Source: Pirellulales bacterium (GTDB lineage: Bacteria > Planctomycetota > Planctomycetia > Pirellulales > JAEUIK01). Taken from it: a DNA stretch of 64,000 nt. Position numbers and translations under genes: made by a program. Location of the stretch: NCBI GenBank assembly GCA_019694435.1, contig JAIBBZ010000003.1:124001-188000 (forward strand), written 5' to 3'. Positions 36,001 through 51,252 of this stretch are shown here, piece by piece. How positions within the stretch are numbered: the first letter of the stretch is position 1; every line of letters starts with the position of its first letter. The notes under the pieces were generated by a model that was given only the letters and a program-made list of their open reading frames with translations, made no database searches and was not told where the DNA came from.

Positions 36001-36558
36001 GATCCGCAAAAGCCCGGCCGGCCGATGTACGAATCGCTGGTCCGCGTGTCGGCCTTCGAGCCGGAGGTGCCGGAAGCGCCGAATTTGCCGCGCATCGAAA
36101 GCGCTTTTCCGCTGCCGGTGCCCGAGGCCTATGAGCGCTGGCTCTTCCACGGCCCGATCCTGCAGGCCATCATCGAATTACGGGGACTCGATCCGAGCGG
36201 GGTCGACGCGGTCTTTGCCCCGGGCAATGTCGAACATTGCCTGGGCGGGGCGCGCCCGGCAGGCTGGTTGATCGATCCGGTGATTCTCGACGCTGCGCCG
36301 CAACTGGGAATGTTGTGGTCACGGGCCGTGCACGACACGAGCCCGTTGCCCAACCGCGTAGCCGTGTATCATCGATTCGGACCGCTGGGCAGCGAGCCGG
36401 TCGAAGCGTTGTTCCGCCTGGATCCGAGCTCGAACGAGAACTGGTATAAGGCCGACGTCTGGCTGCTGCGCGGGAACCGCGTGGTCGGACTCATGGAAGG
36501 ACTCGAAGGCGCCGGATCGGCCGCGTTGAATCGCATTGCCCGGAGCGCTTCTCGATGA
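27064..36558 (+). CDS. Pfa-like type I megasynthase: NMO-NMO-KS-AT-ACP4-KR-DH
   Basis: A 3164-residue iterative synthase of the polyunsaturated-fatty-acid/secondary-lipid type. Domain order by residue: nitronate-monooxygenase/PfaD-like barrel 1 (about 10-235, site EAGGLVG, Leu157 where the family has His), barrel 2 (about 355-640, ECGGHVG with His489), KS (720-1165; Cys908, His1043, His1083), AT (about 1285-1590; Ser1384 in GHSYGE), an Ala/Pro linker with a conserved helix (1753-1780), four ACPs with phosphopantetheine Ser1912, Ser2025, Ser2139 and Ser2251, KR (nucleotide site from about 2580, Tyr2773), and a DH hot-dog pair (His2906, Asp3076 in DAAPQ). All key residues except that of barrel 1 are present. 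GTG 27064 has GGAG at 27049-27052; an internal ATG at 27100 is possible. The stop overlaps the next start. Its chemistry is chain extension, ketoreduction, dehydration and probably enoyl reduction. Confidence 0.93.
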   Translation: MNLYGSKNGQPPMDDGPASFDAIVLSLPGTFQASLPIAAARAGALGLLDLCHLRAEQAGDARAELARLQNSVEQGRTGVCVFARWDELHQQIHAAARGSDTVVLVAESSDDLSTEVNRWREVAARVGLVVTNGPAARAAIAAGADFLIAKGHEAGGLVGEETTFILVQRLIGQMPANARVPVYAWGGIGLRTAAACVAAGAAGVVLDWQLGLLRESPLSDSFKRRLAQMDGSETVAITGPAGEIVRLYWQPGMTARDRLLQLSDRVQMGQEVTLAEWRQTIGELLVAEQENDRLWALGQDAALASLWARELTDVPNVARALGLLRERSVRAIEGAREARALAPDGPLAASHGTEFPVAQGPMTRVSDVPDFALKVAEGGGLPFLALALLSGEQSRDLLKATQTLLGKRPWGVGVLGFVDRELRAKQFAAIEEVCPPFAIIAGGRPDQAAGLEAKGICTYLHVPSPGMLSMFLTEGGRRFIFEGRECGGHVGPRSSFVLWESMIQVLLDAKLPDDELAKIHVLFAGGVHDALSGAMVATLAQPLVERGIKIGVLLGTAYLFTEEIVSSGAILPGFQAAALETQHTVLLETGPGHATRCADTEFYRVFLEERARLKREQVPAEQLREELESLNLGRLRIASKGVARRSTTAPGESPYVQVDADTQRREGMFMIGQVAALRERPCTVRELHDDVCRGALARLAALHDQASVSIVPVEPAPAPLDIAIVGMGCLMPGAHGLADYWNNILRKKDLVREVPADRFDWQRWYDADRNARDKVYSRWGGFLEDVPFDPLKYGIPPAALASIEPMQLLALELVDQCLRDAGYRDHNPYKERTSVILGAGGGIAELGAGYAVRASIPGLIENPDERLWSQLPEWTEDSFAGILLNVVAGRISNRFDFGGVNFTVDAACASSLSAVYLACRELADGTSDLVITGGCDTLQSPFTYLCFAKAGALSPRGKSRTFDSTSDGIAISEGLAAVCLKRRADAERDGDRIYAVIRAVSGGSDGRSKGMTAPRKEGQIRTLERAYAQARFSPATVGLFEAHGTGTAVGDQTECQSVTTVLKSREVPPQSIAVGSVKSMVGHTKCTAGVASLIKSALALHHRVLPPTLHVDTPNAKAGLVDGPLYVNSELRPWIRGEHPRRAAVSSFGFGGTNFHAVLEEYTGAALSTEKLTPHRERPAELFLLAGNSPSALAQRIKSLADPLTKALAAGKRIHLGELALAWQRRQGAAAGTSRAAVVAATPEQLLERLQALAARLAGTAAASGGVAGVYCTESPLGGTGPLAMLFPGQGSQYPNMLCPLAVEFSEVAGCFERADAELRGAYEQPLSTFVYPPPAFDDAQRQRQTEALKATDVLQPALGAADVGMARLLAACGVVPAMVAGHSYGELVALHVAGAIDEAALYRLSLARGRAIVEMSAGHERDLGRMLAVRAPEHEVRAALAGSPEVWLANMNSPRQTIISGTQAGLAHATQQLEAARLASTPIAVSCGFHSPLMEPARARFAEALAQVDLRPAQIDVFSNTTAEPYPTEPAAMRQRLAEHLVRQVHFAAEIEAMYAAGARVFVEAGPGRVLTKLTSEILGNRPHVVVATQITAQNGYPEFLATLGELYAHGVSIDVERLYQGRELKTLDLAELAAPSKPLPKHFVLINGSYLRPAGTPPRQLASRVSLLGDQPTAPQPAAAAPSAAPKVGATPSLAVKPPVSAPIAATAGSHAAPAAAAGPIAAPPVPVAPAASPAPLAVQPPAPEMGDVAMREFQHTMRAFLDAQEKVLTAYLTGSPAMAASPPAPPITVEALPLAASGPVVAMPTVEASTPLAPTVAASASAAPPLAAPVPPPAPRTIAAATYIGAAGPIISPAPAPREQQPTKAAESTPVTSTPLDEFLVEIVSDRTGYPGDMLSMQANLEADLGIDSIKRVEIIGAFRRAALPSIDEPPGWFMEKMTGASTLQQILDGVHELVGEQAPQAASRTDGAKAPAAPATVSEAAAVDPAQLEQMLVEVVSDRTGYPGDMLALDANLEADLGIDSIKRVEIIGAFRRAALPSIDEPPGWFMERMTGASTLRQILAGVADLAGTAAAPEAQAAAAPAHTAPHAAAPAEAAALDQDQLTDMLLGVVSDRTGYPKEMLGLTANLEADLGIDSIKKVEIVGAFRRAALPSVDEPPAWFMERLSGAGTLAQILDGVTALHAQITPAAAHPETSAVSAASTEVAGTPSVAPEQLQQLLVDVVSERTGYPADMLALDANLEADLGIDSIKRVEIIGAFRRAVFPHIDEPPAWFMEEMTSAANLRAILNGVERLSVAAHGNAPSNGTSHGPSNGYSRAEGNGAKANGALPASAPAAETTESTPRCVPAILEAPLAKETRMPQIAGAVVLTDDGRGVTAALQRELQAQGLPAEIIPAEVLASRDATTATLSLVRQRYGAIGALVHLVPLTQTPEFPGIDPGTWRSRVEAELKGLLHLLQGAAPDLGGAYDGNLIVLAATLGGGDFGGDAAQEASRPWRGGIAGMLKTAAKEWIGARFRAIDFDAVPEIELLLAELQSTGPVEVGYRHARRLTVAPMRQEFATSAAGERAQLPGLRRESVVLVTGGARGITAHVARALAARSQATMVLLGRSPLPVEAPHPWAESLADPGQVRKELINRLRAAGTSPSPREVERELVRILADREIRENLQAIAQAGSRVEYHACDVRDEQALAAVINDVQSRLGPIDALIHGAGVIEDRYIVDKSDDSFDRVVGTKLDGAFAFTRLLDPRQLRYCLLFSSVSGFFGNPGQVDYAAANEVLNRMAARLARVWSQTKVAALNWGPWSGAGMVTAEVARQFAERGVGMVTLPGGCQAVVNEFEFADGTTNVLYGPGPWLADAERLAAQCAAVSVATALLAGQVVHRLSNGTIEAYVTLDAAQHGFLRDHMIDQKPVFPAAFALELMAETALAAAPPGWHVTHVENLRAFAGIVLDEPTRTILVRAEAIDWQESGGVWRVRIVDPQKPGRPMYESLVRVSAFEPEVPEAPNLPRIESAFPLPVPEAYERWLFHGPILQAIIELRGLDPSGVDAVFAPGNVEHCLGGARPAGWLIDPVILDAAPQLGMLWSRAVHDTSPLPNRVAVYHRFGPLGSEPVEALFRLDPSSNENWYKADVWLLRGNRVVGLMEGLEGAGSAALNRIARSASR

Positions 36559-39500
36559 CCTTGCCGGCCGACGCCACGGCGGCTGACCTTTCGCCGCCCG
36601 CTGCGCGCGCGGACGAAGACATTGCCATCGTCGGTATGGCATGTTTTCTCCCCGGTGCCGACGGTCCGCGCCGCTATTGGCAGAACATCGTCGGCAAGGT
36701 CGATTGCGTCGGCGAGCCGACTCCCGATTGGCAGCCGGAGTTCTTCGCGCCGCATGTGTACGTGCGCCGGGGCGGCTTTCTCGGCGAGATCGCGCGGTTC
36801 AACCCCGCACGCTATGGCATCATGCCTTCGAGCATCGAGGGTGCCGAGCCGGATCAGTTCCTCGCGTTCCGCTGTGCCGTCGAGGCACTGCACGACGCCG
36901 GGTATCCCGAGATCCCGATCAATCGGCCCAAGACGGGCGTGATCCTCGGCCGCGGCATTTTCATCAACCGCGGCCTGCTGACGATGATCTCGCAGGGGTA
37001 CATGATCGGCCAGTTCGTCGATCTGCTGCGCCAACTCGAGCCCGAACGCACGGCCGACGACCTGGCGCTGATCGAGCGCGAGCTGCGCAAGCGGATGCCG
37101 CCGTTCAATTCGGAGACCGTGCCGGGGCTGACGCACAACATTCTCGCCGGCCGCGTTGCCAATCGCCTCGATCTGAACGGCCCGGCCTACACGGTCGATG
37201 CGGCGTGTTCGTCGGCGCTGTTGGCGGTCGATCAGTCGATCCGCGAGTTGCGGAGCGGGCGCTGCGACATGGTCCTCGCCGGCGGCGTGCAGGTCTCGAC
37301 GCCCGGCATGGTCCACATGGCATTTTGCTATCTCGACGCGCTGAGCAAGCAAGGCAAGATCGCCCCTTTCTCGGCCGAGGCCAGTGGGACCTTGCTCGGC
37401 CAGGGCTGCGGCGTGCTCGTGCTCAAGCGGCGCAGCGACGCCGAACGCGACGGCAACCGCATCTACGCACTCGTCAAGGGCGTGGGCACTTCGAGCGACG
37501 GGAAAGGCTCGGGCCTGTTGGCCCCCAGCCAGGCCGGCCAGGAAATCGCCCTCCGGCAGGCCTACGGCACGACCGGCGTCGATCCGGCGACGATCGGCCT
37601 CGTCGAAGCGCACGGCACCGGCATCCCGTTGGGGGATCAAACCGAAATCAAGACGCTGACCAGCGTTTTCGGCGCGCGCCACGGTGCCAAGCCCACCGTG
37701 GCGGTGGGCAGCGTCAAGTCGATGATCAGCCACTTGATTCCCGCCTCGGGGGCCGCGTCGCTGATCAAGACGGCGCTGGCGCTGTATCACCGCGTGCTGC
37801 CGCCGATGCTGCACGCCGAGCAGCCCAATCCCGCACTCGGACTGGAGCGCACGCCCTTTTACCTGTCGACGACGACGCGGCCGTGGATTCACGGCGAGCG
37901 CCGGCATCCGCGTCGCGCAGGCGTCAACGCGTTTGGATTCGGCGGTATCAACACGCACGCGATTCTCGAAGAGCATCTGCCGGCCGCCGAGTCGGACCTG
38001 CCGCGGCTAGAAGACAACTGGCCGGTCGAGTTGGTGGTCGTGTCGGCCGAGTCGCGCGAGGCGCTATGCACGCGGCTGGGCCAATTGCGCGTGTGGCTCG
38101 AACGCGCGCCGCACGTTCGCCTGCTCGACGTGGCCGCCAGTACCGCCGCCGAGTCGGGGGCGCTGCGCGTCGCGATCGTGGCCCAGTCGGTTGCCGATCT
38201 GCTCAAGAAGCTCGTGACCGCCGAGAAGATGCTCAGCGACCCGGCACGCGAGAAGATCCAAGACCGCAGTGGCATCTTCTGGTACGCCCAACCGCTGGCG
38301 GCCGCGGGGCGCGTCGCGTTTGTCTTCCCCGGCGAGGGCGCGCAGTATCCGAACATGCTGGCCGACCTGTGCCGTCACTTCCCCGAAGTGCGGCGCGAGT
38401 TCGATTTGACCGATGCAGCCTTTCTCCGCACCCCTGGCCGCCAGCCGCTCAGCCGGTTGATCTATCCATTGCCGGACGAGACGCAGGCGGCCGAGGCCGA
38501 GTTGCTCGAACTGGGCGGCGCGGTGACGAGCGTCACGCTAGCCTCCCGGGCCTTGTTGGCGCTGCTCCGCACGCTGGCCATCGAGCCGCAGGCCATCGTC
38601 GGACATTCCAGCGGCGAATTCGGCGCGTTGATGGCCGCCGGCGCCATCGCGCCCGAAGGCGACGAGGCGCTCATCGATGCGCTCAGCGAGGGCGCCAACA
38701 ACGCCGCCCGGCTATCCAGCTCGGGTCTGGTGCCGCCGGCCGTGCTGCTGGCGGTGGGTGGGGCTGAGCGCGCGGCGGTCGACGCGGTCGTCGAGCATGC
38801 CGCGGGACGGCTGACCATCGCGATGGACAACTGCCCCAGCCAGGTCATTCTTTCCGGCGACGAGGCGGCGGTCGACGCGGCCATCGAAGGGCTGCGCGGC
38901 AAGGGCGGTCTCTGTGAAAAGCTGCCGTGGGGCCGTGCCTATCACACCGCGGCATTCGAGCCGGCCAGCGGCATCATCGAAGACTATTTCCGCACGATCG
39001 GCTTGCAGTCGCCGCGCGTCGAGACCTGGTCGTGCGCCTCGGTCGAGCGGTTTCCGGCAGAGCCCCCGGGCGTGCAGGAATTGGCCGTGCGGCAATGGCG
39101 TTCGCCCGTGCGGTTCCGCGAAACGGTCGAGGCGATGTACGCGGCCGGCGTGCGGATCTTTCTCGAGGTCGGACCGCGCGGCAATCTGGCTGCGTTCGTG
39201 TCCGACACGTTGAAGAAGCAGCCCCACCTGTCGGTCGCGCTCGATGTACCGCGCTACGATGGGGTGACGCAGCTCTGTCGTGCGCTCGGCCAGCTCGTGG
39301 CACACGGCGTGCCGCTGAATCTCGACGCGCTGTATCGCCGGCGCCAGCCGCAGCGATTGGATCTGGCGGCCGAACCGCCGGCGGCGCCCAAGACCGACCC
39401 CGTGCTGCGGCTCGACCTGCCGACCTTCGCGCTTTCGGACGAAACGCTGGCCACGTTGCGCCAATCGAAGCCGGACGTGAATACCGCCTCGGCCATGCCG

Positions 39501-41939
39501 TCTGCGCCGGCTGCCACCTCGGCGCCGTCAACAGCGGCTGTCTCCGCGTCGCCCGCCTCACACGCGGCCGCGGCGCCGCCCTTGCCCCGGGCCGCGACTC
39601 CGGTCAAGCCAGCGCCTGCACTTCCCACAGGTACGCCGACCGTCGCCGCTTCGGCAACGTATGCCAACGGCCATGCATCGGCCGCTACCCCTCGGTCGCC
39701 GGCCACCCCGTCGCAGCCCGCGGTTGCGGCGAGCGCGGCCATCGACCCGCGCACCCAGGCCGTGGTCGACTACCAGCGCACGATGCGTCATTTCGTCGAG
39801 ATGCAGCAGCGCATCATGTCGACGCGTCTCCAAGGCAGGCAGCCGGCCTCGACGCATAACGGTGTCGCGGCCCCGGGTTCCGTAGCGGCGAATCCGGCGG
39901 CAGTGAAACCTGCACCCGTGGTATCGGCGTCTGTAGTACCAGCGGCAACGCCGCCGGCTGTGTCTGCCGTTGCCGCGCCAGCCACACGCCCGACGCCGCC
40001 GGTGGTCGCGCCCGTCGTTCATGCGCCGGCACCGGCGCCGCCCCCCGCCGCGCCATTGGCGGCGACACAAAATGGTCATACCGCGGCGGCAACTCAGGCG
40101 ATCGCAGTCACTCGCGCCAGCGCGTCTTCTCCCGCTCCTCGTGAAGCCGCGAAGGCACCCGGCAGTCCGCCACCCGCGAGCAGTGCGCCAGCGACGGGCA
40201 CCGCCACGTTGCCGCGCACGCAGCGCTCGACGCTGCCGCTGCTGGAAACGGTGTTGATCCACGAACCCGGCTCCCGGCTGCTGGCCGAATGCGAGTTGGA
40301 CATCGAGCGACATCGCTTCCTGCTGGATCACACGTTCCTGGGCCGGGCGTTGTCGACGGTCGATTCGAACCTACAAGGCCTGCCGGTCATGCCGCTGGCC
40401 ATGTCGTTGGAGTTGATGGCCGAGGCGGCTGCCAAGCTCTGCCCGGACCTGACCGTGGTCGCGATGGATAACGTGCGGACCATGCGTTGGCTGGCCTTCG
40501 AGACCAGCAATCGCCGCGTGCGCATGGAGGCCCGGCAGCTCGACGAGACGCACGTGCACGTCACAGTGTCCGAAGCCGATCGCGAAGGCTTCAGCGCCGT
40601 GATCGTCGAAGGCAACGTCGAACTGGGCGAATTCGAACCGGAGCTTGGACCCGCGGTCGTGCCCGATCGGGCCACCGAGCCTGCCCCCTGGGCCGAAAAC
40701 CTCTACGACTGGATTCTGTTCCACGGCCCGGCGTTTCAAGGCATCGATTCGATCGACGCCTACGAGCCGACGGCGATTCGCGCCACGGTGCACGAGCCCG
40801 ACGCCGGGCTGCTGTTCGCGCCGGGCGCCGGTGGTCCGCTCGTATTGCCGTCGGCGCTGGTCGATGTCGCGTCGCAAGTGCCGGGCATGATCTACGGCCA
40901 ATGGCACCCGGAAGACCCCGAGGTGTACATGGTCTTCCCGAACAGCATCGGCCGGCTAGAGTTTGTCGCCGACCGGCCGAAAGCCGCGCTCACGGCCGTA
41001 GCCACGATGCACCGCGAAGGTGCGTTGCTGCACTCCGACGTCGAGCTCAAAGCGCCCGACGGCCGGATCGTGCTTCGGATGACGGGGCGTGTGTGCCAGG
41101 TGGTCGATTTCCCCACGGGCCTACACCACTACTCGAAGGCCTCGACGCGGGTCACCTGCAGCCGCGATATCACCGAGGTGTTCGCCGGCGTGCCACATAT
41201 CGAAGCGTGCCGCGTGTGCGAAACTTTGACGGCGGGCAGCCCGATCTTGCTTAATCGCCTCTGGTCGCAAGTCGTGGCGCGGATGATCCTCGATCGCCAG
41301 GAACGGGCGGCGTTCGCCGGGCAAAAGCTCTCGCCTGCCGCCGCGGCCTACTGGCTGGCCGGGCGCATCGCGGCCAAAGACGCCGTGCGGTTGTTCGCCG
41401 GGGCACCGATTTGCATGGCCGACGTCGCCATCACGGCCAACGGCGACGGCAAGCCGCACGCCCATCTGCCTGGCGATCTGGCGGCGCCGGCCGTGAGCAT
41501 CGCACATAAGGAATTCAAGGCCGTCGCCCTGGCCGCGCCGGCCCAGCTGGCCGCGGTGGGAATCGACATCGAGGCCCTGATCGCGATGGACCCGGGCCTG
41601 GTGGCCGACGCGTTCACCCCGGAGGAACTGGCCCTCCTGGCCGCAGCGGCCACGGCGTCGCAAGAGCCGGTCGACAACTGGTATCTCTCGGCCTGGAGCG
41701 CCAAAGAGGCCCTCGGCAAGGCCTTAGGTCGCGGCGTGCTCGGCGGCCCGCGAGCCGTCGAAGTCCGCCAGGCCTGCGCCACCACCGGACGCTTCTTGTT
41801 AGCACTGCGCGGGCCGATGGCCGAAGCATTTCCGAAATTAACGTCGAACGAGGCCGGTGAGATTTGCCTGCCGGCGTATCGCCGTTTACACGGTCCCTAC
41901 TGCGTGGCGATCTGTTTGTTAGAATCGCTGCCTGCCTGA
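36555..41939 (+). CDS. Pfa-like megasynthase subunit: KS-AT-DH-phosphopantetheinyl transferase
   Basis: An 1794-residue partner of the preceding synthase, translationally coupled through ATGA. KS (about 15-450) has Cys218, His353 and His393, so it is a condensing enzyme rather than a chain-length-factor-type KS. AT (about 590-900) has Ser685 in GHSSGE. A long Ala/Pro linker (about 960-1215) contains a helix (about 1070-1096) that echoes the one in the first synthase. A DH-type hot-dog region has His1259 in LLDHTFLG and the DxxxQ pair Asp1437/Gln1441. The C-terminus is an Sfp-type 4'-phosphopantetheinyl transferase with GIDIE (Asp1671, Glu1673) and WSAKEALGKALG (Lys1717, Glu1718). There is no ACP here, so it must act on the four ACPs of the partner or the separate ACP. 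The fused transferase presumably activates those carriers. Confidence 0.92.
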   Translation: MTLPADATAADLSPPAARADEDIAIVGMACFLPGADGPRRYWQNIVGKVDCVGEPTPDWQPEFFAPHVYVRRGGFLGEIARFNPARYGIMPSSIEGAEPDQFLAFRCAVEALHDAGYPEIPINRPKTGVILGRGIFINRGLLTMISQGYMIGQFVDLLRQLEPERTADDLALIERELRKRMPPFNSETVPGLTHNILAGRVANRLDLNGPAYTVDAACSSALLAVDQSIRELRSGRCDMVLAGGVQVSTPGMVHMAFCYLDALSKQGKIAPFSAEASGTLLGQGCGVLVLKRRSDAERDGNRIYALVKGVGTSSDGKGSGLLAPSQAGQEIALRQAYGTTGVDPATIGLVEAHGTGIPLGDQTEIKTLTSVFGARHGAKPTVAVGSVKSMISHLIPASGAASLIKTALALYHRVLPPMLHAEQPNPALGLERTPFYLSTTTRPWIHGERRHPRRAGVNAFGFGGINTHAILEEHLPAAESDLPRLEDNWPVELVVVSAESREALCTRLGQLRVWLERAPHVRLLDVAASTAAESGALRVAIVAQSVADLLKKLVTAEKMLSDPAREKIQDRSGIFWYAQPLAAAGRVAFVFPGEGAQYPNMLADLCRHFPEVRREFDLTDAAFLRTPGRQPLSRLIYPLPDETQAAEAELLELGGAVTSVTLASRALLALLRTLAIEPQAIVGHSSGEFGALMAAGAIAPEGDEALIDALSEGANNAARLSSSGLVPPAVLLAVGGAERAAVDAVVEHAAGRLTIAMDNCPSQVILSGDEAAVDAAIEGLRGKGGLCEKLPWGRAYHTAAFEPASGIIEDYFRTIGLQSPRVETWSCASVERFPAEPPGVQELAVRQWRSPVRFRETVEAMYAAGVRIFLEVGPRGNLAAFVSDTLKKQPHLSVALDVPRYDGVTQLCRALGQLVAHGVPLNLDALYRRRQPQRLDLAAEPPAAPKTDPVLRLDLPTFALSDETLATLRQSKPDVNTASAMPSAPAATSAPSTAAVSASPASHAAAAPPLPRAATPVKPAPALPTGTPTVAASATYANGHASAATPRSPATPSQPAVAASAAIDPRTQAVVDYQRTMRHFVEMQQRIMSTRLQGRQPASTHNGVAAPGSVAANPAAVKPAPVVSASVVPAATPPAVSAVAAPATRPTPPVVAPVVHAPAPAPPPAAPLAATQNGHTAAATQAIAVTRASASSPAPREAAKAPGSPPPASSAPATGTATLPRTQRSTLPLLETVLIHEPGSRLLAECELDIERHRFLLDHTFLGRALSTVDSNLQGLPVMPLAMSLELMAEAAAKLCPDLTVVAMDNVRTMRWLAFETSNRRVRMEARQLDETHVHVTVSEADREGFSAVIVEGNVELGEFEPELGPAVVPDRATEPAPWAENLYDWILFHGPAFQGIDSIDAYEPTAIRATVHEPDAGLLFAPGAGGPLVLPSALVDVASQVPGMIYGQWHPEDPEVYMVFPNSIGRLEFVADRPKAALTAVATMHREGALLHSDVELKAPDGRIVLRMTGRVCQVVDFPTGLHHYSKASTRVTCSRDITEVFAGVPHIEACRVCETLTAGSPILLNRLWSQVVARMILDRQERAAFAGQKLSPAAAAYWLAGRIAAKDAVRLFAGAPICMADVAITANGDGKPHAHLPGDLAAPAVSIAHKEFKAVALAAPAQLAAVGIDIEALIAMDPGLVADAFTPEELALLAAAATASQEPVDNWYLSAWSAKEALGKALGRGVLGGPRAVEVRQACATTGRFLLALRGPMAEAFPKLTSNEAGEICLPAYRRLHGPYCVAICLLESLPA

Positions 41940-42077: not shown

Positions 42078-43655
42078 ATGAAGACGGTCTTGCTCGGTCT
42101 CGATGGGGCAACATTCACGATTCTCGATCACCTCGTCGCCACCGGCGTGATGCCGCACCTGGGCGAGATGTATCGTCGCGGCGCGCGGGCCCTGCTGGGC
42201 TCGACGCCCCTGCCGCTCACGCCACAGGCCTGGACGACGATGGCCACGGGCCGCAACCCCGGCCATCACGGCATCGCCGATTGGATTCGTTGCGAGCAGG
42301 GTGCCAGTGGCACGTATTGCCATCTGAACAATGCCCGCGACAACCACTGCGAGACGCTGTGGAGCTACGCCTCGCGGCAGGGCAAGCGCGTCACGGTGCT
42401 GAACTACTTCGGCCTGGCCCCGCCTTCGCCCATCAACGGCCATACGATGCCCGGCTTCACTTCGGGACGGCACTTGCGCCGCTCGAGCTATCCGGCCGAT
42501 CTGTTCGCGCGGCTCGAAGGCGTCTCGGGTTTCGACGTCAAAGTCCTCGGCATGGACTTCGACGTCGAGATGCAAGGTCTGCAGGAAATGGACCACGAGA
42601 ATTGGGCTCGTTGGATCGATCATCAAATTGCGCGCGACCGGGTGTGGATGAGCGTGATGGAGCACCTGATGCGCACCGAGCCGAGCGACCTGACGGCGAT
42701 GGTCCTCGACGGTACCGACAAGTTGCAGCACCTGGCCTACCGCTTCCTCGATCCGGCGCTGCGCCCGGCTCAACCCACCCCGTGGGAACAACAAGTCACC
42801 GAACGCTGCCAGGCCTACTATCGCCAGGTCGACGATTTCCTTGGCCGCCTTGCCGAATTGGTCGGCGCTTGGGGACGATTGTTCATCGTCTCCGATCACG
42901 GCTTCACCGGCACGCAGGAGATCGTCTACATCAACCGCTGGCTGTGCGATCAGGGGTTGCTGCACTGGCGCGGCGAGGTGCCCGAGGACCAGGCCGAGGC
43001 CTGCCAGACCGATCGCCCCGCGCAGGATGCCAACCTGGTCGACCTCGAGCGCAGCCGGGCCTATGCCCTGACGCCCAGTTCGAACGGTGTGTTCCTGAAT
43101 GTGCCGCCGAGCGAGTACGTGGCGTTTCGCGACGATCTGATCGACAAGCTGCTCGCCCTGCGCGGCCCCGACGGCGGGCAAGTCATCACCGAGGTCAAGA
43201 AACGCGAAGACTGGTTCGCAGGCCCGTATATCAACCACTTCCCCGACCTGACGCTGACGCTCCGCGACCACGGCTTCGTTTCCGTGCTCAACGGCCGCGC
43301 GCCGGTCGTGCCGCGCAGCGTGCCCAACGGCACTCACCATCCCGACGGCATCCTCGTGGCCACGGGCACCGGCGTTCAAGCGGGCGTCGACGCGGGCAAG
43401 TACTACCTGTTGGATATCGCGCCGCTCTTGGCCCATAGCCTGGGTCTGGAGATTCCGGCCGATTACGAGGGTGAGCTCCCCGAGCGGATTTACGATCCGG
43501 CCTATCTGGCCAGCGATCGGCCGCGTCAGGCTCAGGCGGCCGCGGAACCCGCGCCGGCGAGCGTGGCCTCGGGCGGCGATGCTGCCGGCGAACTCGATGC
43601 CGAAGACGAAGCGATCATCATGGCGCGGCTTAAGAGCCTGGGGTACATCGAGTGA
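42078..43655 (+). CDS. AlkP-superfamily phosphodiesterase/transferase, paralogue 1
   Basis: A metal-dependent enzyme of the nucleotide pyrophosphatase/phosphodiesterase branch. From ATG 42078 the first metal ligand is Asp9 in GLDGA and the nucleophile is Thr54 in WTTMATG, followed by RNPGHHGI. Further ligands are visible in LDGTDKLQH, SDHGF and HHPDGILVATG, so the site looks intact. There is no signal peptide, so it is probably cytoplasmic. The C-terminus ends LKSLGYIE, as in many planctomycete AlkP relatives. The gene lies 138 bases after the second megasynthase. A close paralogue lies at 46692. In-frame codons from 42012 are not favoured because the domain begins right at MKTVLLGLDG. The substrate is unknown. 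A role in releasing, trimming or transferring a phosphorylated group on the cluster product is inference. Confidence 0.85.
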   Translation: MKTVLLGLDGATFTILDHLVATGVMPHLGEMYRRGARALLGSTPLPLTPQAWTTMATGRNPGHHGIADWIRCEQGASGTYCHLNNARDNHCETLWSYASRQGKRVTVLNYFGLAPPSPINGHTMPGFTSGRHLRRSSYPADLFARLEGVSGFDVKVLGMDFDVEMQGLQEMDHENWARWIDHQIARDRVWMSVMEHLMRTEPSDLTAMVLDGTDKLQHLAYRFLDPALRPAQPTPWEQQVTERCQAYYRQVDDFLGRLAELVGAWGRLFIVSDHGFTGTQEIVYINRWLCDQGLLHWRGEVPEDQAEACQTDRPAQDANLVDLERSRAYALTPSSNGVFLNVPPSEYVAFRDDLIDKLLALRGPDGGQVITEVKKREDWFAGPYINHFPDLTLTLRDHGFVSVLNGRAPVVPRSVPNGTHHPDGILVATGTGVQAGVDAGKYYLLDIAPLLAHSLGLEIPADYEGELPERIYDPAYLASDRPRQAQAAAEPAPASVASGGDAAGELDAEDEAIIMARLKSLGYIE

Positions 43656-43710
43656 CCTGCACGCGCCCCCTATCGATCCTTTGCGCAGCGCGCCTGCGGC
43701 GGAGTGCCTG

Positions 43711-46305
43711 ATGGTCGCCTCGCCTGCTAGTGCAGCGTCCGCGAGCGGACCCGAGGGGCCGAGTACCGGGCCGCGCCCCGTCGGCCTGAGCACCGGTCAC
43801 TTTCGGCGGATCGCCGCCAACGGGTTTGGCGACCCGCACAATTCTTACGCCTACGGCTATGCCTGGTACCGCGATAACCTGTTCGTCGGCACCAACCGCG
43901 ACATCCTGGTGCAGGCCCGTAAGCGTTTCAAATTCAGCGTGCCCACGGCGATGTGGCCGGTCGAGGTGCCGGAAAGCATCGATACGTTCGACTTGGGCGC
44001 GCAGATTTGGCGTTATAACCCGCGCATCGATCAATGGAAGCAGGTGTTTCGCTCGCCGTACGTGCCGGGGCTCGAGGGGAAGACGGTGCCCCTGGCGAGC
44101 GGCTTTCGCAACATGGCGGTGTTTCAGGGCAAGAGCGACCCCTGCCCTGCCCTTTACACGATCCCGAGCTGCGGCTCCTACGGCATCGGCCCCGTGCTGA
44201 TGCGCACGCTCGACGGTGAACGGTTCGAGCAGGTCAGCGAACAAGGTCTCGGCCTCGACGACCCGAACGTGACTTCGTTCCGCTCGATGGTCGTGTTCAA
44301 GAACCGGTTGTTCATGACGCCGGCCGGTTCGCGCGGGTTCGATCCGAACGTGTCGTACTTTGCGCTGATCCTTTGCAGCGACGACCCTTCGCGCGGAAAC
44401 TGGAAGATTACCAATCCCGGCAGCTTCGGCGATCCGACGAACTACGGCATCTACGACATGTGCGTCCGCGGCGACTTTCTTTATGCCGGGACGATGAACA
44501 TCCGCGAAGGCTTTCAGCTTTGGAAAACCGACGGCGAAGGCGAGCCGCCTTTCCACTGGACCAAGGTGCTCGATCGCGGGGCCGATCGCGGGCCGTGGAA
44601 CCAGGGCGTCGTGTCGATCAATCCCTTCGGCGATTGCGTCTATCTGGGCACCGGCATCCAGAACGGCGGCTTCGATCGCAACAACAACATCGGTCCTGGC
44701 GCCGGCGAGGTAATTCGCGTCTGGCCCGACGACACCTGGGACCTGGTCGTCGGTCAACCGCGCATGACGCGCTGGGGACTGAAGATCCCCACGAGCGGCA
44801 TGGGCCCCGGCTGGGACAACGGCTTTGCCGGCTATATCTGGCGCATGTGCCAGCACCAGGGCGCGTTCTACGTCGGCACGTTCGACTCGACGGCCATGTT
44901 TCCGTTTGCGCCGCTCGACGAACGCGCGCAACGTGTGTTCGATCGCCACACGCAGGAACAGTTCATGCAGTTTCGCGGCGGCACCGAGCTGTGGCGCACC
45001 GTCGATGGCGACAACTGGGTGCCTGTCACGCGTAACGGCTTCGGCAATCCGTACAACTGGGGCATTCGCACGCTGATTTCCACTCCCGCGGGTCTGTTCG
45101 TAGGCACGGCCAACCCCTTCGGACCGAAAGTCGCGGTGCGCGGTCCCTCGGGCTGGCGGTACGAGTTCAATCCGCAGGGCGGGGTCGAAGTCTGGCACGG
45201 CAACCACGATCACGTCGCGACCCAAGCCACTCCCGATCACCCGGCGGGCGTGCAGATCATTCCCGAGCCGACGCTGGCCGGCGAGCAGATCACGCCGGGC
45301 GAGGCCGCGTTGAAGATGCCCGAAATGGGCGACGATTCGTTACGGGTCATCGACGAATTGATCGCTGCGGCGCCTCTGTCCGACGTGCGCGAAGACGACG
45401 ATCGGCCGACGCATTCGCTCGACACCTGGAGCGAACGCCCGCTGGACAATCGCGACTTCGACCCTCGGCTGCAGTTGGCCGATCAGGAGCAACTCGAAGC
45501 CTTCCACGAACAAGTCGCGGCCGAAATCGACGACTATTTCCTGGGGACCCGGCTGCGTTCGGTCGGCTACTGGCGCTTCGAGCATTGGACCCCCGCCGAG
45601 GCGGCCCGTGCCCTGGTGAACGAGGCTCTGGCCGTGGCGACCGGCGACCTGGCCAAGGACGATACGGTCGACCTTCTGCCGCGCACGGGGCGCACGCTGG
45701 CCATCGGCTACGGCGCCGACGAATTGGCCGCGGAGCTACACCGGCTGCGGCCGCTACTCTCGATCGAACCCGTCGAGTTGGCCGGGTTGGTGGGTCAGGT
45801 GTCGAGCCTGACGGGCCGTCCCAACTGGCGATTGCCCGCCGAGAGCGCCGCGGTCGAACTGGTCGTGTGGATCGACGGGCCGGGCGAAGTCGACCGATTC
45901 ACGGCGCTCCGCGAGGTCGCGCGCGTGCTACGGCCTGGCGGCTGTTTTGTCGCCGCCGATTCGGTGGGCCCGTTGTTGTCTGAGTTGACCGAGCCGCTCA
46001 ACGCGCCTCAAGACATCCATCAACCCGCCGCGCCCGAAACGTTGTATGCGAAGGCACTCGGCAAGATGGGCCTGACGCAGATCCGCATTGCCGATTGCAC
46101 GCGCGACGGCTGGATGCGATTCTGCCGGCACAGCCGCAACTATTTCGGCGTCCGCTTCCTGATGAACCAGATCGATGCTGACCGGTTCCGCGCGATCTGC
46201 CAGGCGCTGCCCTGCGGGCGGCGGATGATCGAGCAGCAGCTGCTGATCTGTGCCGTCAAGCCGGGCGAGGTGCCCGAAGCGCCTGCGAATTCACCTACCA
46301 CCTGA
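43711..46305 (+). CDS. Beta-propeller protein fused to a degenerate methyltransferase-like domain
   Basis: The ATG at 43711 has GGAG at 43701-43704. About 520 residues form roughly seven propeller-type repeats with the pattern 'hydrophobic-G-x-LYVGT ... ELW-T-DG' (DNLFVGTNRD, DFLYAGTMN, CVYLGTGIQ, AFYVGTFDS, TELWRTVDGD, GLFVGTANP). A linker of about 110 residues follows. The last 280 residues look like a class I SAM methyltransferase: VLRPGGCFVAADS fits the post-motif region, but the glycine-rich SAM loop is reduced to LAIGYGADELA, so binding is doubtful. No signal peptide is present. It sits between two AlkP-type genes and next to an ACP gene, all on the same strand. I do not recognise a family with this fusion. 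Function unknown. A scaffold or docking role in the cluster is possible. Confidence 0.75.
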   Translation: MVASPASAASASGPEGPSTGPRPVGLSTGHFRRIAANGFGDPHNSYAYGYAWYRDNLFVGTNRDILVQARKRFKFSVPTAMWPVEVPESIDTFDLGAQIWRYNPRIDQWKQVFRSPYVPGLEGKTVPLASGFRNMAVFQGKSDPCPALYTIPSCGSYGIGPVLMRTLDGERFEQVSEQGLGLDDPNVTSFRSMVVFKNRLFMTPAGSRGFDPNVSYFALILCSDDPSRGNWKITNPGSFGDPTNYGIYDMCVRGDFLYAGTMNIREGFQLWKTDGEGEPPFHWTKVLDRGADRGPWNQGVVSINPFGDCVYLGTGIQNGGFDRNNNIGPGAGEVIRVWPDDTWDLVVGQPRMTRWGLKIPTSGMGPGWDNGFAGYIWRMCQHQGAFYVGTFDSTAMFPFAPLDERAQRVFDRHTQEQFMQFRGGTELWRTVDGDNWVPVTRNGFGNPYNWGIRTLISTPAGLFVGTANPFGPKVAVRGPSGWRYEFNPQGGVEVWHGNHDHVATQATPDHPAGVQIIPEPTLAGEQITPGEAALKMPEMGDDSLRVIDELIAAAPLSDVREDDDRPTHSLDTWSERPLDNRDFDPRLQLADQEQLEAFHEQVAAEIDDYFLGTRLRSVGYWRFEHWTPAEAARALVNEALAVATGDLAKDDTVDLLPRTGRTLAIGYGADELAAELHRLRPLLSIEPVELAGLVGQVSSLTGRPNWRLPAESAAVELVVWIDGPGEVDRFTALREVARVLRPGGCFVAADSVGPLLSELTEPLNAPQDIHQPAAPETLYAKALGKMGLTQIRIADCTRDGWMRFCRHSRNYFGVRFLMNQIDADRFRAICQALPCGRRMIEQQLLICAVKPGEVPEAPANSPTT

Positions 46306-46350
46306 CCCCCTGTCGCCGCGTCGATTGCGACGCGGACGCGGAGCCATGCG

Positions 46351-46635
46351 ATGCCTACGACCGACACGATTCTCAGCGATTTGAAGTCGCTGCTGGCCGA
46401 TATGACCAGCGACTGGGACACCAGCTTCGAGGGCGAAATCACGCCCCAGACCCGGCTGATCACCGACCTGGGCTTCGAGTCGATCGACGTCGTGCAACTC
46501 GTCACCGCCATTGAAGAGCACTATGGCCGGCGCGATTTCCGCTTCGAAGAGCTGTTGATGGAAGGTGGAACCTACGTCAACGAAGTCAGCGTCGGGCGGA
46601 TCGTCGCGTTCCTCGAGCGTCATTTGAACAAGTAG
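46351..46635 (+). CDS. Free-standing acyl carrier protein
   Basis: A 94-residue acidic carrier protein. The phosphopantetheine attachment site is Ser44 in DLGFESIDVVQL, a DSL-motif variant with Glu before Ser. This resembles discrete ACPs from secondary pathways more than the housekeeping AcpP form. Helix II continues VTAIEEHYG. ATG 46351 has GGAG at 46340-46343. It sits between the propeller protein and the second AlkP gene, so it may carry an intermediate to the tailoring enzymes, with the fused transferase in the second synthase as its likely activator. Confidence 0.92.
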   Translation: MPTTDTILSDLKSLLADMTSDWDTSFEGEITPQTRLITDLGFESIDVVQLVTAIEEHYGRRDFRFEELLMEGGTYVNEVSVGRIVAFLERHLNK

Positions 46636-46691
46636 TTTCCCCGCCTTCGCCCCGTTCCTGCCAGCACCGCCGCAGCGCGCAAAGGTCTGCC

Positions 46692-48272
46692 ATGCAACCC
46701 ACCGTATTGATCGGCCTCGACGGCGCCACCTACTCGATTCTCGACCCGCTGATGGCGGCCGGGCAGATGCCGCACCTGCAACAGTTCCTGGCCCGTGGCG
46801 TCCGCGCCGAGCTGCTGACGACGCCGCATCCGCTCACGCCCCCGGCCTGGACGACGCTGATGACCGGTCGCAGCCCGGGGCATCACGGAATCTTCGATTT
46901 CTTGCGTTCCGAGGTCCGCGCCGGCGGCGCGTTCTTCACGCTCAACAACTTTCGCGACATTCACTGCGAAACGATCTGGTCGATCGTCAGCCGCCAGGGC
47001 GGTAGCGTCACTTCGCTCAACTTTCCGCTGATGGCGCCGCCGCCCAAGGTTTCCGGCTCGATCGTGCCCGGCCTGCTGTCGTGGCGGCATCTGCGCCGCA
47101 ACATCCACCCGGTCGAGCTGTATGACGAGCTCAAGGGCCTGCCCGGCTTCAATCCCAACGAGATCTCGTGGGATTTCGAGCACGAGAAGAAGGCCATGCA
47201 GATCCTCGAAGACGAGGAGCTCGAACCGTGGACCCAGTTTCACATCGTGCGCGAACGGCACTGGTTCGAGATCACCAGGCACATCATGGAACAACACCCG
47301 GCCGACCTGACGGCCGTCATGTTCGACGGGGTCGACAAGCTCCAGCACGGCTGTTGGCGATTCCTCGATCCGCGCTACTTCAGCGCTCAGCCTAGCGCGT
47401 TCGAACGGCGGATGCGCGAGCTGTGCGTGCAATACTTCCACGAGCTCGACGGCTTCATCGGCCGCATCGTCGCGCTGGCCGGCCCGCAGGCGCGCGTCTT
47501 CATCGCTTCGGACCACGGCTTCGGGCCTACCGAGACGGTGTTCCGCATCAACAAATGGCTCGAAAGCCAGGGCTACCTCCAATGGGCCGATCGTACGGCC
47601 GAGAAGCCCGCCGCCGGCCATTTCGTGGCGCTCGATTGGGAGCGGACGATAGCCTATGCCCCCAGCGGCGCGACCAACGGCATTCACATCCGCGTGGCGC
47701 ACGGCCCTGGTGAAACGGGCGTGGCGGCAAACGAATATCACGCCTTCCGCGAGCAGCTTATCGCCAAGCTCAAGGAGCTGCGCCACCCGGAAACCGGCGT
47801 GCCGCTGGTACGTGACGTGTTGCTGCGCGAGCAGGCATTTCCTGGCGAGGCCGGCAAGTCGGGGCCCGACTTGACGCTCGTCCTGTTCGATCACGGTTTC
47901 TTCTCGGTGCTCGACGCCGAGCCGATCGTCTGGCAACGGCCGCTGGTCGCGGGAACGCACTGTCCCGAGGGGGTCTTCGCCGCGGCTGGCCCCGGCATTC
48001 CGCGCGGCATTGCCGTGTCGCAGCAGTCGATTCTCGACGTGGCGGCCACGCTGCTTTACAGCCTAGGCTTGCCGGTTCCCAGCGACTTCGAGGGGAAGGT
48101 GATGCAGGCGGCGTTCGAGCCGGCCCAGCTTCAGGCCCAGCCGATCGTCACCGGGCCGCCGACGACTTCGCCCTCGGGCACGGTCGAGCGCGTCGCGGTC
48201 GACGCGGACGCCGAAGCCGACTCGGACGAAAAGATCCTGCAGCGATTGCGAGCCCTGGGCTACGTCGAATAG
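46692..48272 (+). CDS. AlkP-superfamily phosphodiesterase/transferase, paralogue 2
   Basis: A 526-residue paralogue of the enzyme at 42078, matching it along its length. Asp10 in GLDGA, nucleophile Thr55 in WTTLMTG followed by RSPGHHGI, then FDGVDKLQH, SDHGFGPTE and GTHCPEGVFAAAGPGI provide the family's metal ligands. The C-terminus ends LRALGYVE. There is no signal peptide. It follows the ACP gene by 56 bases with an AAAGG ribosome site. Two intact copies in one cluster suggest different substrates or a heterodimer. A substrate cannot be read from sequence. Confidence 0.87.
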   Translation: MQPTVLIGLDGATYSILDPLMAAGQMPHLQQFLARGVRAELLTTPHPLTPPAWTTLMTGRSPGHHGIFDFLRSEVRAGGAFFTLNNFRDIHCETIWSIVSRQGGSVTSLNFPLMAPPPKVSGSIVPGLLSWRHLRRNIHPVELYDELKGLPGFNPNEISWDFEHEKKAMQILEDEELEPWTQFHIVRERHWFEITRHIMEQHPADLTAVMFDGVDKLQHGCWRFLDPRYFSAQPSAFERRMRELCVQYFHELDGFIGRIVALAGPQARVFIASDHGFGPTETVFRINKWLESQGYLQWADRTAEKPAAGHFVALDWERTIAYAPSGATNGIHIRVAHGPGETGVAANEYHAFREQLIAKLKELRHPETGVPLVRDVLLREQAFPGEAGKSGPDLTLVLFDHGFFSVLDAEPIVWQRPLVAGTHCPEGVFAAAGPGIPRGIAVSQQSILDVAATLLYSLGLPVPSDFEGKVMQAAFEPAQLQAQPIVTGPPTTSPSGTVERVAVDADAEADSDEKILQRLRALGYVE

Positions 48273-48306: not shown

Positions 48307-49194
48307 ATGCCTTACCTCGTTCATGAAGGCGTCCGTTTGAACTATCGCGATGCCGGCCAGCGCGGGGCCGCGGGTGTCGTGTTGCTGCACGGCCTGGCGG
48401 CCAACCAGGCGTTCTGGAACCTGGAGCTGGTCGGCCAATTGGCGGCCGACTGGCGCGTCATCACCTACGATTTGCGCGGCCACGGATACAGCGACACTCC
48501 GGCCGACGGCTACGAGCCGGAGGCCCAGGCACGCGATCTCGTGGCGCTTTTGGACCACCTCGAGCTGCCCGCGGCGCATCTCGTGGGGCACAGCTTCGGT
48601 GGGCTGATCGCGCTGCAGGCCGCGATCGACTCTGCGCCGCGCGTACGTTCGCTCGTGCTGGCCGATTCGCGCCTGGCGGGCCTTGCTCCGGAGCAGATTC
48701 TGCCGCAGCAATTCGATTGGCGCGACTTGCAACGGCGCCTGCGGCGCAGCGGCGTGCGCCTCGCAGAACACGAAGCGGAAATCGGGCTGTGCCTGCTCGA
48801 AGCGATCGCTGGTCCGCGCTGGCTGGGCGTGCGTCAAAAGGCCCGCGGACAGGTCAAGTTTCTCCCCTTTGCCGCCTCAAAACGCTCGGGCGAACAATGG
48901 CTGAAGCTGCTGCAGGCGACGCAAGCAGATCGCGGCTTTCGCGACCGGGGCCAGGTCTTGCCCACGACGATCGCGGCGCTCGACATCCCCTTGTTGGCCG
49001 TCTACGGGGAACGGTCGCCGCATCGCGCCAGCATGCAGGCGCTGGCCCATTGGGGACGGCACGTGCGGTGCGAAACGGTCGCCGACGGCGGACACTTTCA
49101 CCCGGCTGCCGAACCGCTGCGATTCGCCGCCATCGTGCGCGCGTTTCTCGGCGAAGTCGCTACAATCTCCCCGGGGGCAGCGGAGCACGCCTGA
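48307..49194 (+). CDS. Alpha/beta hydrolase, candidate thioesterase/lipase of the cluster
   Basis: A 295-residue single-domain hydrolase. The oxyanion segment is LLHGLAANQAFW, the nucleophile Ser96 in GHSFGG, and the catalytic His is likely in DGGHFHP near the C-terminus. The acid is probably in PLLAVYGERS, where the usual Asp is replaced by Glu. There is no signal peptide, so it is cytoplasmic. The gene lies 34 bases after AlkP paralogue 2 with an AGGA ribosome site, so it fits the same operon. The synthases have no thioesterase domain, so this enzyme could release the chain. That is inferred from position. Confidence 0.8.
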   Translation: MPYLVHEGVRLNYRDAGQRGAAGVVLLHGLAANQAFWNLELVGQLAADWRVITYDLRGHGYSDTPADGYEPEAQARDLVALLDHLELPAAHLVGHSFGGLIALQAAIDSAPRVRSLVLADSRLAGLAPEQILPQQFDWRDLQRRLRRSGVRLAEHEAEIGLCLLEAIAGPRWLGVRQKARGQVKFLPFAASKRSGEQWLKLLQATQADRGFRDRGQVLPTTIAALDIPLLAVYGERSPHRASMQALAHWGRHVRCETVADGGHFHPAAEPLRFAAIVRAFLGEVATISPGAAEHA

Positions 49195-49212: not shown

Positions 49213-50235
49213 ATGGAGCGATCCCTGACACGATTTGGGATCCGGACGCGGCTAGGCCTTGTGGTCCTGGCGGCCGTGGGTGTTTGGCCGGCGTGTGCGC
49301 AAGCGCAGTTTCCCCGGCCGGACCAACCGCGTCTGCTCGCGCAGCGCGGCTTTGGCGGCAAAGAGGCAACGGGCGTGGAAATTTTCTACCTGAATCACAA
49401 CGGCCTGAAGCGCCGCTACCTGGTCCACTTGCCCCAGGGTCGCGAGACCCAGGCAAATCTGCCGCTGGTGCTGGCGTTTCATGGCGGCGCCGGCCGGGCC
49501 GACAGCCAGGTGCGCCAGAGCCTGATGAACGATACGTCGGATCAGCAAGGTTTTATCGTCGCCTATCCCGACGGCACGGGCCGAGCCGGGTTTCTCACCT
49601 GGAACGCCGGCACCTGCTGCGGCTATGCCATCGAGCACCAGATTGACGACGTCGGATTCACCGCCGCGCTGATCGATCAACTGCAACAGCAGTACAAGAT
49701 CGACCCCAAGGGGGTGTACGCGACGGGCATGAGCAACGGCGGCATGTTGTGCTATCGGCTCGCCTGCGAGTTGTCCGACCGCATCGCCGCGATCGCTCCC
49801 GTGGCCTGCGCGCTGCACGTCAACGGCCCGCAGCCCAAGCGGCCGGTGCCGATCTGCCATTTCCACGGCCTGAAGGACCCCAACGTCCTGTTCCAGGGCG
49901 GGTTGGGCCCCAACCAATTGCAGAAGACCCCGCACCGCTCGAACGCCGAGACCTTGGGCTTCTTCATCAAGGCCTACGGCCTGAGCCCTCAGCCGACCGA
50001 CGTGCACCGGGAACAGGACTATATCCTCGAGCGATATGAGCCCGCTCCCGGCCAGGGCGGCGCGCCAATCTGGCTCTACAAGCTGCCCGAGGGTGGTCAC
50101 ACCTGGCCCGGCGGCGTCGACATCACCGCCCGCTTCAATACCGGCAAGCTCATTGCAAGCGTTAAGGCCAACACCCTGATGTGGGAATTCTTCCAGCATT
50201 TCACCACCGACGGACCGGTGGGGGGCGGCCGATAA
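49213..50235 (+). CDS. Secreted PHB-depolymerase/feruloyl-esterase-like hydrolase
   Basis: A 340-residue protein with a signal peptide (LGLVVLAAVGVWPACAQA) and an alpha/beta-hydrolase fold: LVLAFHGGAGRADS is the oxyanion region, GMSNGGM gives nucleophile Ser174, and PEGGHTWPGG near the C-terminus supplies the His. The pattern matches the LpqC/polyhydroxybutyrate depolymerase group. It lies 18 bases after the cytoplasmic hydrolase with GGGAGG as ribosome site, so it may be the last gene of the cluster or an unrelated passenger. The substrate is unknown. Confidence 0.85.
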   Translation: MERSLTRFGIRTRLGLVVLAAVGVWPACAQAQFPRPDQPRLLAQRGFGGKEATGVEIFYLNHNGLKRRYLVHLPQGRETQANLPLVLAFHGGAGRADSQVRQSLMNDTSDQQGFIVAYPDGTGRAGFLTWNAGTCCGYAIEHQIDDVGFTAALIDQLQQQYKIDPKGVYATGMSNGGMLCYRLACELSDRIAAIAPVACALHVNGPQPKRPVPICHFHGLKDPNVLFQGGLGPNQLQKTPHRSNAETLGFFIKAYGLSPQPTDVHREQDYILERYEPAPGQGGAPIWLYKLPEGGHTWPGGVDITARFNTGKLIASVKANTLMWEFFQHFTTDGPVGGGR

Positions 50236-50313
50236 GACGCTCGTCCGCGGCCGGGCAACTATAATGAGCCAAGAACTGCCGTCCTTTTGGCTCTGGTTTT
50301 CCCCGTTGGTTCG

Positions 50314-51252
50314 ATGGCCGACCTGATTCCTCGACTCCGGCCGCTCGGCGGCGATTCGGCAGCACACCTGGCGCTTGCGCGGGGGCTGTTCCAATGCGGT
50401 CGCCACGGGCAGGCCCTGGCCGAGCTCGACAAGGTGCTGCGCGAGAATCCCGAGCTGGGGGCCGCCCACTATCTGCGCGGGCTCGTCCTGGCACGCCTGG
50501 CCGACTTCAGCGCCGCCACCACGGCCCTGGAAAACGCTGTCCGGCTCGACGAAGAGCTGGACGGGGCCTGGATGGCCCTGAGTTATGTGCGCACCGAGCT
50601 CGGCCTCAAAGAAGAGGCCCTCGAAGCCGCGCGGCGGGCCGTACAGATCGACGAAAAGAACGCTCAAGCCTATCTGATGCTCGGCAACGCGCTGGCTGCG
50701 CTCGACCGGGTCAAGCTGGCCATTGCCGCTTACCGCAGGGCTGTGCACTACAACCCGCAATTGCAGATGGCCCATTACCGCCTGGCGAGCCAATTGCAAA
50801 AGGCCGGGCGCGAACAAGAGGCCTTCGACCAGGTGCTCAAGTCGCAACGGCTCAACCCGATGGACGCCAACAGCCGCCTGACGCTGGGCGATATGCTGCT
50901 GTCGCGCGGCGATGTCGACGGAGCCTTGCGCGAATATAAGATCGCCTCGGAGCTTTCGCCGACGCAGGGCACGCCCACCTACAAGGTCGGGCTCGCGTTT
51001 CTGCAAGCCGAGATGCGCAAAGAGGCCATCGGCGCGTTCCGCAACGCCGTGCGCCGCGATCCCAAGCACATCGACAGCTTTCTAGCGCTGGCGAAGATCT
51101 ATCTCGAAGACGGCGAACCTGTCGAGGCCGAGGCCATGTGCAAGGCAGCCCTGGAAGTCGACAAGCGTTGTCCGGCGGCCAACGAGTTGATGCAGCAGGT
51201 GCAGGCGGCGCTCGGCAACCCGGCGCCGGCACCGCCTGATCCAAACGCGTAG
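50314..51252 (+). CDS. TPR-repeat protein
   Basis: The 312-residue protein consists almost wholly of about eight tetratricopeptide repeats (for example GAAHYLRGLVLARLADFSAA, AQAYLMLGNALAALDRVKLA). There is no signal peptide or membrane span. The ATG at 50314 (MADLIPRLRP) is preferred over an in-frame TTG at 50287. TPR proteins act as protein-interaction scaffolds, and the partner cannot be named. It lies 78 bases after the secreted esterase and is convergent with the CPBP gene. Confidence 0.82.
   Translation: MADLIPRLRPLGGDSAAHLALARGLFQCGRHGQALAELDKVLRENPELGAAHYLRGLVLARLADFSAATTALENAVRLDEELDGAWMALSYVRTELGLKEEALEAARRAVQIDEKNAQAYLMLGNALAALDRVKLAIAAYRRAVHYNPQLQMAHYRLASQLQKAGREQEAFDQVLKSQRLNPMDANSRLTLGDMLLSRGDVDGALREYKIASELSPTQGTPTYKVGLAFLQAEMRKEAIGAFRNAVRRDPKHIDSFLALAKIYLEDGEPVEAEAMCKAALEVDKRCPAANELMQQVQAALGNPAPAPPDPNA

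Follow-up and report, generated by a model that had tools for sequence, protein, structure and literature searches.

Pfa-like secondary lipid synthases were surveyed in 2011 by Shulse and Allen, who described their synthase genes and distinguished Types A-T (PMC3098273). Type O is found in Dinoroseobacter, Parvularcula and Gloeobacter, and the planctomycete Type J cluster is composed of two genes only (PMC3098273). For canonical Pfa systems, PfaB has been reported as the terminal acyltransferase (PMC12895367). Here, we analysed a Pfa-like cluster carried on a stretch of 64,000 nt (hereafter the window, positions 124001-188000 of its contig) from a planctomycete genome of 6.1 Mb. Two genes of the alkaline phosphatase (AlkP) superfamily, AlkP1 and AlkP2, lie in this cluster close to a discrete acyl carrier protein (ACP). 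Such AlkPs almost certainly serve as core accessory enzymes in Pfa-like lipid synthase clusters, which are widespread.

As in Types A-T, the cluster includes a PfaA-type multi-ACP synthase, has an uncharacterised product and is scattered over phyla; it possibly corresponds to Type O. The first synthase protein, PKS1, scored 1285 bits against the curated PfaA model TIGR02813 and clears its cut-off of 1010, which justifies calling it a Pfa-type lipid synthase; the second, PKS2, stays under this cut-off with 539 bits. The order 3′ of these two synthase genes is AlkP1, a propeller protein, ACP, AlkP2, an alpha/beta hydrolase, an esterase and a tetratricopeptide repeat (TPR) protein, all on the plus strand (Table 1). 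The original prediction, made from the sequence, had placed the two AlkPs on either side of propeller and ACP genes. This layout is correct, but the propeller is only part of its protein, the C-terminus being formed by a fused methyltransferase-like domain.

The association of AlkP with the synthase was examined in the order to which the window belongs. AlkP orthologues (at least 43% identity, E <=1e-124) were present in 6 of the 196 genomes searched, the window's included. Exactly the same six carried a ketosynthase (KS) domain, by which PKS2 was searched, at least 61% identical to that of PKS2, the next best KS being 48% identical. In all five other AlkP genomes of the order, the gene adjoins PKS2, ACP, hydrolase or propeller. 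Similarly, all eight AlkP genomes of a second order (that of genome G487, 193 genomes) have the PKS2 KS.

A wider scan of 84,980 species (one genome each), in which AlkP similarity was the sole criterion for selection, yielded 80 loci, many of them from metagenome bins. Full-length AlkP orthologues occurred in about ten phyla (Planctomycetota, Pseudomonadota, Cyanobacteriota, Nitrospirota, Thermodesulfobacteriota, Myxococcota, Acidobacteriota, Actinomycetota, Poribacteria and Tectomicrobia), so that the match goes far beyond chance. Since similarity to the window AlkP determined the ranking of these loci, the following fractions describe its closest relatives and not PF01663 at large: PKS2 is directly upstream of AlkP in 70 of the 74 loci with upstream sequence, ACP stands beside AlkP in 64/67, the alpha/beta hydrolase accompanies it in 62/66 and the propeller is present in 49 of the 61 loci with 9 kb downstream. 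For the 4/74 loci without an adjacent synthase, a PKS2 KS (51-54% identity) is encoded elsewhere in the same genomes. The cluster occurs in relatives from the Rhodobacteraceae and the cyanobacteria, and Rubrivivax gelatinosus, a relative grown in the laboratory, has PKS1-PKS2-ACP-AlkP-alpha/beta hydrolase-propeller. No AlkP match was found in the plasmid collection at E 1e-40. In 41 loci (about 3-4.6 kb) with more distant AlkPs of the phylum, PKS2, ACP, hydrolase and propeller were absent from the neighbourhood; the sole distant-AlkP control with such neighbours, locus L050, is the AlkP1 of the related genome G294 itself. The original prediction would have been refuted, and the AlkPs taken for passengers, if related clusters usually lacked these genes; they usually have one, and AlkP almost certainly belongs to the pathway.

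Both genes are, as predicted, complete open reading frames (ORFs) of the superfamily. They scored 123.8 and 127.7 bits against PF01663 (Phosphodiest), for which the Pfam gathering score is 23, and no further Pfam family was matched. AlkP1 is 56-63% identical to AlkPs of other planctomycete clusters. Its catalytic set is D9, T48, D214, H218, D273, H274 and H420, invariant in an alignment of 44 family sequences; that of AlkP2 is D10, T49, D215, H219, D274, H275 and H423. Every metal-ligand position is thus present in the two enzymes, as had been claimed. The proposed nucleophile, by contrast, has to be corrected. It had been assigned to the second T of 'WTT' (Thr54 and Thr55), while alignments with the Xanthomonas nucleotide pyrophosphatase/phosphodiesterase (Xac NPP) and with phosphonoacetate hydrolase agree on the T of an 'LTPxAW' motif, Thr48 in AlkP1 and Thr49 in AlkP2. 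Because this threonine is invariant whereas the WTT positions vary among the 44 family members (TT, TS, VS, PA, IT), Thr54/55 was rejected. AlkP1 D9 corresponds to Xac NPP D54 in the structural range, and T48 (T49 in AlkP2) to T90. In Xac NPP, a Thr is the nucleophile, and D54, D210, H214, D257, H258 and H363 are the metal ligands. The register was obtained for the N-terminal part from the Xac NPP, structure and PhnA alignments, and later ligands were assigned by motif. Inspection by eye revealed no signal peptide in AlkP1 or AlkP2, which are predicted to be cytosolic. Both are very probably active phosphodiester-type enzymes.

The AlphaFold model of AlkP1 (mean pLDDT 90) was closest to Xac NPP (7mw8_B, Z 29.0, 3.4 Å, 346 residues), followed by ENPP5, ENPP4, ENPP7 and ENPP6 (Z about 28), then by PhnA and PafA (Z about 26). 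Xanthomonas NPP (2gsn, 7mw8) and ENPP4-7 share with the AlkPs the fold (Z 28-29) and all seven catalytic or metal-ligand positions. Unlike Xanthomonas NPP, to which they are about 17% identical, the AlkPs are predicted to be cytosolic, contain about 140 additional residues and carry F/W at the N111 position, beside a conserved Asp. This last substitution indicates a distinct branch, and we refer to the class as NPP-type rather than NPP. Their genomic partners, a lipid synthase and an ACP, also distinguish them from Xanthomonas NPP and ENPP4-7. Among PDB sequences, the top profile match was phosphonoacetate hydrolase PhnA (1ei6, 3szy; E 3e-9), with the nucleophile Thr aligned, but the AlkPs fall far short of the curated PhnA model: they reach about 22 bits with NCBIfam TIGR02335, against a cut-off of 407. 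Within the AlkP superfamily, phospho-headgroups are moved onto lipids by the glycosylphosphatidylinositol (GPI) ethanolamine-phosphate transferases, membrane proteins acting in the lumen of the endoplasmic reticulum.

ACP is directly upstream of AlkP in 50/67 loci, mostly with 14-45 bp between the end of the ACP match and the AlkP start, and is kept in 3 of the 4 loci without a nearby synthase. Its Ser44 and Asp46 are conserved in 78/78 homologues. The propeller protein (AlphaFold pLDDT 81) gave propeller fold matches with Z 24-27, and its C-terminal part matched methyltransferases of the SpnF/MitM/AtmM type in structure, although neither a Pfam hit nor a usable NCBIfam match was obtained for this protein. 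In a Pseudomonas locus (L100, 11609-14188), alpha/beta hydrolase and propeller are joined in a single protein, separated by a DUF6316 region. HlyD-type adaptors occur in 27/81 loci; the window encodes one as well, next to a TolC-like protein, and in G294 the HlyD and TolC-like pair lies just downstream of ACP. A Nitrospira cluster (L077) includes a sulfotransferase (16681-17589) and an outer-membrane efflux protein. Export proteins, sulfotransferase and propeller-hydrolase fusion as neighbours point to an exported, tailored lipid. Overlapping ORFs matching the L077 sulfotransferase were seen in about nine loci, suggesting that this gene recurs.

The pair itself is not a conserved unit, contrary to what had been suggested. 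Most clusters hold one AlkP; two are found at the core in the window and its relative G294, and a second AlkP of the family was present in none of the other loci among the 80. In a tree whose outgroup rows were too divergent for rooting, AlkP1 groups with planctomycete AlkPs, whereas AlkP2 and the G294 AlkP2 group with L079, L093, L117 and L128 (Desulfobulbaceae/gamma/delta, support 100/96). The window hydrolase groups with the same four loci (support 98/95), while planctomycete clusters have the nearest relatives of its propeller, PKS2 and esterase. Since AlkP2 and hydrolase share these sister loci, an AlkP2-hydrolase cassette was apparently imported and joined the resident AlkP1, and the ACP probably came with it. 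The two AlkPs are 45% identical over their length and are neighbours within one apparent operon, which would fit AlkP2 being a recent AlkP1 duplicate with an effect on dosage only. The concordant splits of the AlkP and hydrolase trees rule this out, and we consider it very unlikely. The term paralogues used in the original prediction therefore fits their similarity but not an origin by recent local duplication.

In G294, AlkP2 adjoins a transposase-like ORF (L054, 8206-9336) and tandem short-chain dehydrogenase/reductase (SDR) domains; the former fits mobility of that gene. Also encoded in this genome, between ACP and a HlyD adaptor, is a third AlkP of more distant kinship ('GLDCAE' type, 469 aa; L161, G294:C1, 4477-8957); genes for HlyD and outer-membrane efflux follow downstream of this AlkP and ACP. 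AlkPs of the 'GLDCAE' type recur in other genomes of the phylum. When searched in the window, this third AlkP matched only AlkP1 and AlkP2.

Taken together, these results lead us to propose, with a probability of about 0.5, that the AlkPs are cytosolic, NPP-type two-metal enzymes, core to a Pfa-like pathway, which act after synthesis with ACP and hydrolase on a phosphodiester of the lipid or its headgroup. The synthase would build the chain, which would then reach the discrete ACP; the AlkP/hydrolase cassette would finish or release it, and HlyD/TolC-type proteins would export the product. In the active site, the phosphodiester would be held between two metals (D9, D273, H274 and D214, H218, H420) and attacked in-line by Thr48/49, giving a phospho-threonine intermediate to be resolved by water (hydrolase) or by an acceptor alcohol (transferase). 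Catalytic residues and predicted fold were established for the AlkPs themselves, while metals and reaction are presumed from the family. Given the linkage within the ACP-AlkP-hydrolase cassette, the step would take place at the discrete ACP or immediately afterwards. Moreover, as PfaB is reported to be the terminal acyltransferase and PKS2 also has an acyltransferase (AT), a discrete ACP and a hydrolase suggest an added late step. Once the chain has been synthesised, AlkP likely acts jointly with ACP and hydrolase, the timing being read from the gene neighbours. The nature of the substrate, a phosphodiester on the lipid or on its headgroup donor, with the phospho-headgroup cleaved or transferred, is our preferred but tentative assignment.

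The tight ACP-AlkP-hydrolase linkage fits a lipid phospho-group and the phosphopantetheine of the carrier alike. AlkP could remove (acyl-)phosphopantetheine from the discrete ACP, so that the product is released as acyl-phosphopantetheine or the carrier is reset or regulated, and would then represent a third, convergent class of carrier-protein phosphodiesterases. ACP is indeed the nearest partner, usually directly upstream and mostly retained where no synthase is nearby, the linkage to be cut is a phosphodiester, the AlkP fold is of the diesterase type and the lack of a signal peptide is as expected of a carrier-processing enzyme. In addition, a phosphopantetheinyl transferase (PPTase) domain ends PKS2 just upstream, an arrangement that resembles the one in M. 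tuberculosis, where PptT and PptH have consecutive locus tags (PMC8557913). The known phosphopantetheine hydrolases, however, have an HD (AcpH) or a metallophosphoesterase (PptH) fold, both unrelated to AlkP even if the reaction were shared (PMC8557913). Furthermore, the cluster hydrolase could itself release the chain as a thioesterase, and the universal conservation of ACP Ser44 is expected under every model. To our knowledge, no member of the AlkP superfamily removes phosphopantetheine, and we regard this explanation as doubtful. Rather long odds also apply to the wider proposal of an enzyme class new to fatty-acyl assembly, in which an AlkP-fold enzyme completes the work of a Pfa-like synthase present in about ten phyla, either by cutting the phosphopantetheine diester of a dedicated carrier or by moving a phospho-headgroup onto the tethered product.

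Alternatively, AlkP may supply a building block by acting on a small diester of nucleotide or coenzyme type (CoA, acyl-CoA, CDP-alcohol or NDP-sugar), with ACP and lipid untouched. The nearest solved relatives are nucleotide pyrophosphatases/phosphodiesterases, and CoA-transferase III genes occur in several loci, AlkP2-clade members included. Such a substrate would nevertheless leave the tight cassette and the co-inheritance of AlkP2 with the hydrolase unexplained, and no nucleotide-sugar or CDP-alcohol enzyme was found among the recurrent families examined; we hold it to be unlikely. The presence by chance of passengers or housekeeping phosphodiesterases might be suspected, given that less closely related PF01663 proteins occur widely in the phylum (94/294 genomes). 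Exact co-occurrence in the order and a conserved position in about ten phyla rule it out, all active-site residues are kept and the distant homologues are not near synthases; we give it hardly any credence.

Several observations weigh against the proposed post-synthase action on a lipid or headgroup phosphodiester. Its timing is taken solely from gene neighbours, and no other gene found here obviously makes a phospholipid headgroup. Four genomes of the second order have the PKS2 KS and no AlkP, although these assemblies may be fragmented. PafA, a monoesterase, scores Z 26.2 with the AlkP1 model, so that the fold alone is not proof of diesterase specificity. The position of the NPP/PafA Asn (N111/N100), occupied by F/W next to the conserved D68, was located by alignment count, with a one-residue shift possible. 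Finally, best hits do not place the window ACP clearly with the AlkP2 clade.

Table 1. Genes of the Pfa-like cluster and associated export genes in the window
Feature	Position	Strand	Evidence and remarks
AlkP1, 525 aa	42078..43655	+	PF01663 E 1.6e-35; resident planctomycete orthologue
Beta-propeller (seven-bladed-type, ~residues 25-500) with C-terminal methyltransferase-like domain	43711..46305	+	AlphaFold, fold matches
Discrete ACP, 94 aa, phosphopantetheine Ser44	46351..46635	+	PF00550 E 1e-5
AlkP2, 526 aa, second NPP-type enzyme	46692..48272	+	PF01663 E 1e-36
Alpha/beta hydrolase	48307..49194	+	PF00561 E 1e-27; Ser96 and His263 conserved
PKS1, PfaA-type: PfaD-like enoylreductase (ER) region, KS, AT, four ACP repeats, ketoreductase (KR), dehydratase (DH)	27064..36558	+	TIGR02813; Pfam domains; ACP repeats visible in sequence
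PKS2: KS-AT-DH-phosphopantetheinyl transferase	36555..41939	+	Pfam domains
PHB-depolymerase-like esterase (PHB, polyhydroxybutyrate)	49213..50235	+	NF050058 154 bits vs cut-off 150; homologues in 21 loci
TPR protein	50287..51252	+	TPR families; homologues in planctomycete loci and in some others
HlyD/RND-type membrane-fusion adaptor (RND, resistance-nodulation-division), likely product export	15662..18001	+	PF13437/PF16576
Outer-membrane efflux (TolC-like) protein, adjoins HlyD gene	18045..20441	-	PF02321 E 2e-20

A large Ig/cadherin/RTX-like secreted protein is encoded near the cluster (window 20720-25381, minus strand), as is one near the cluster of G294 (L056, L161); the window protein is possibly linked to the export genes. 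Elsewhere in the window genome, a second synthase KS (G000:C7:40183-41706) is 45% identical to the PKS2 KS, with no AlkP match on that contig. A paralogous discrete ACP (47%; G000:C8:41118-41390, L162) is found 3′ of an S-adenosylmethionine (SAM) methyltransferase gene, relatives of which sit in several AlkP clusters.

No phosphodiesterase or hydrolase is mentioned in the text of the survey of Pfa-like types (PMC3098273), nor a phosphodiesterase in a 2026 survey of hybrid clusters (PMC13291983). Our literature search, with subscription journals outside its coverage, found no description of AlkP in Pfa-like clusters. The enzyme superfamily and the synthase class are known, and their widespread combination is apparently undescribed. 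Many Pfa-like secondary lipid synthases are without a known product. The ACP-AlkP-alpha/beta hydrolase-propeller cassette, which accompanies a single type of synthase across about ten phyla and has apparently been acquired as a whole in some cases, marks out a recognisable sub-pathway and provides a direct handle on lipid fate and release. An AlkP acting on the carrier would add a third fold for phosphopantetheine removal, whereas one that moves a headgroup would predict a phospholipid-type product.

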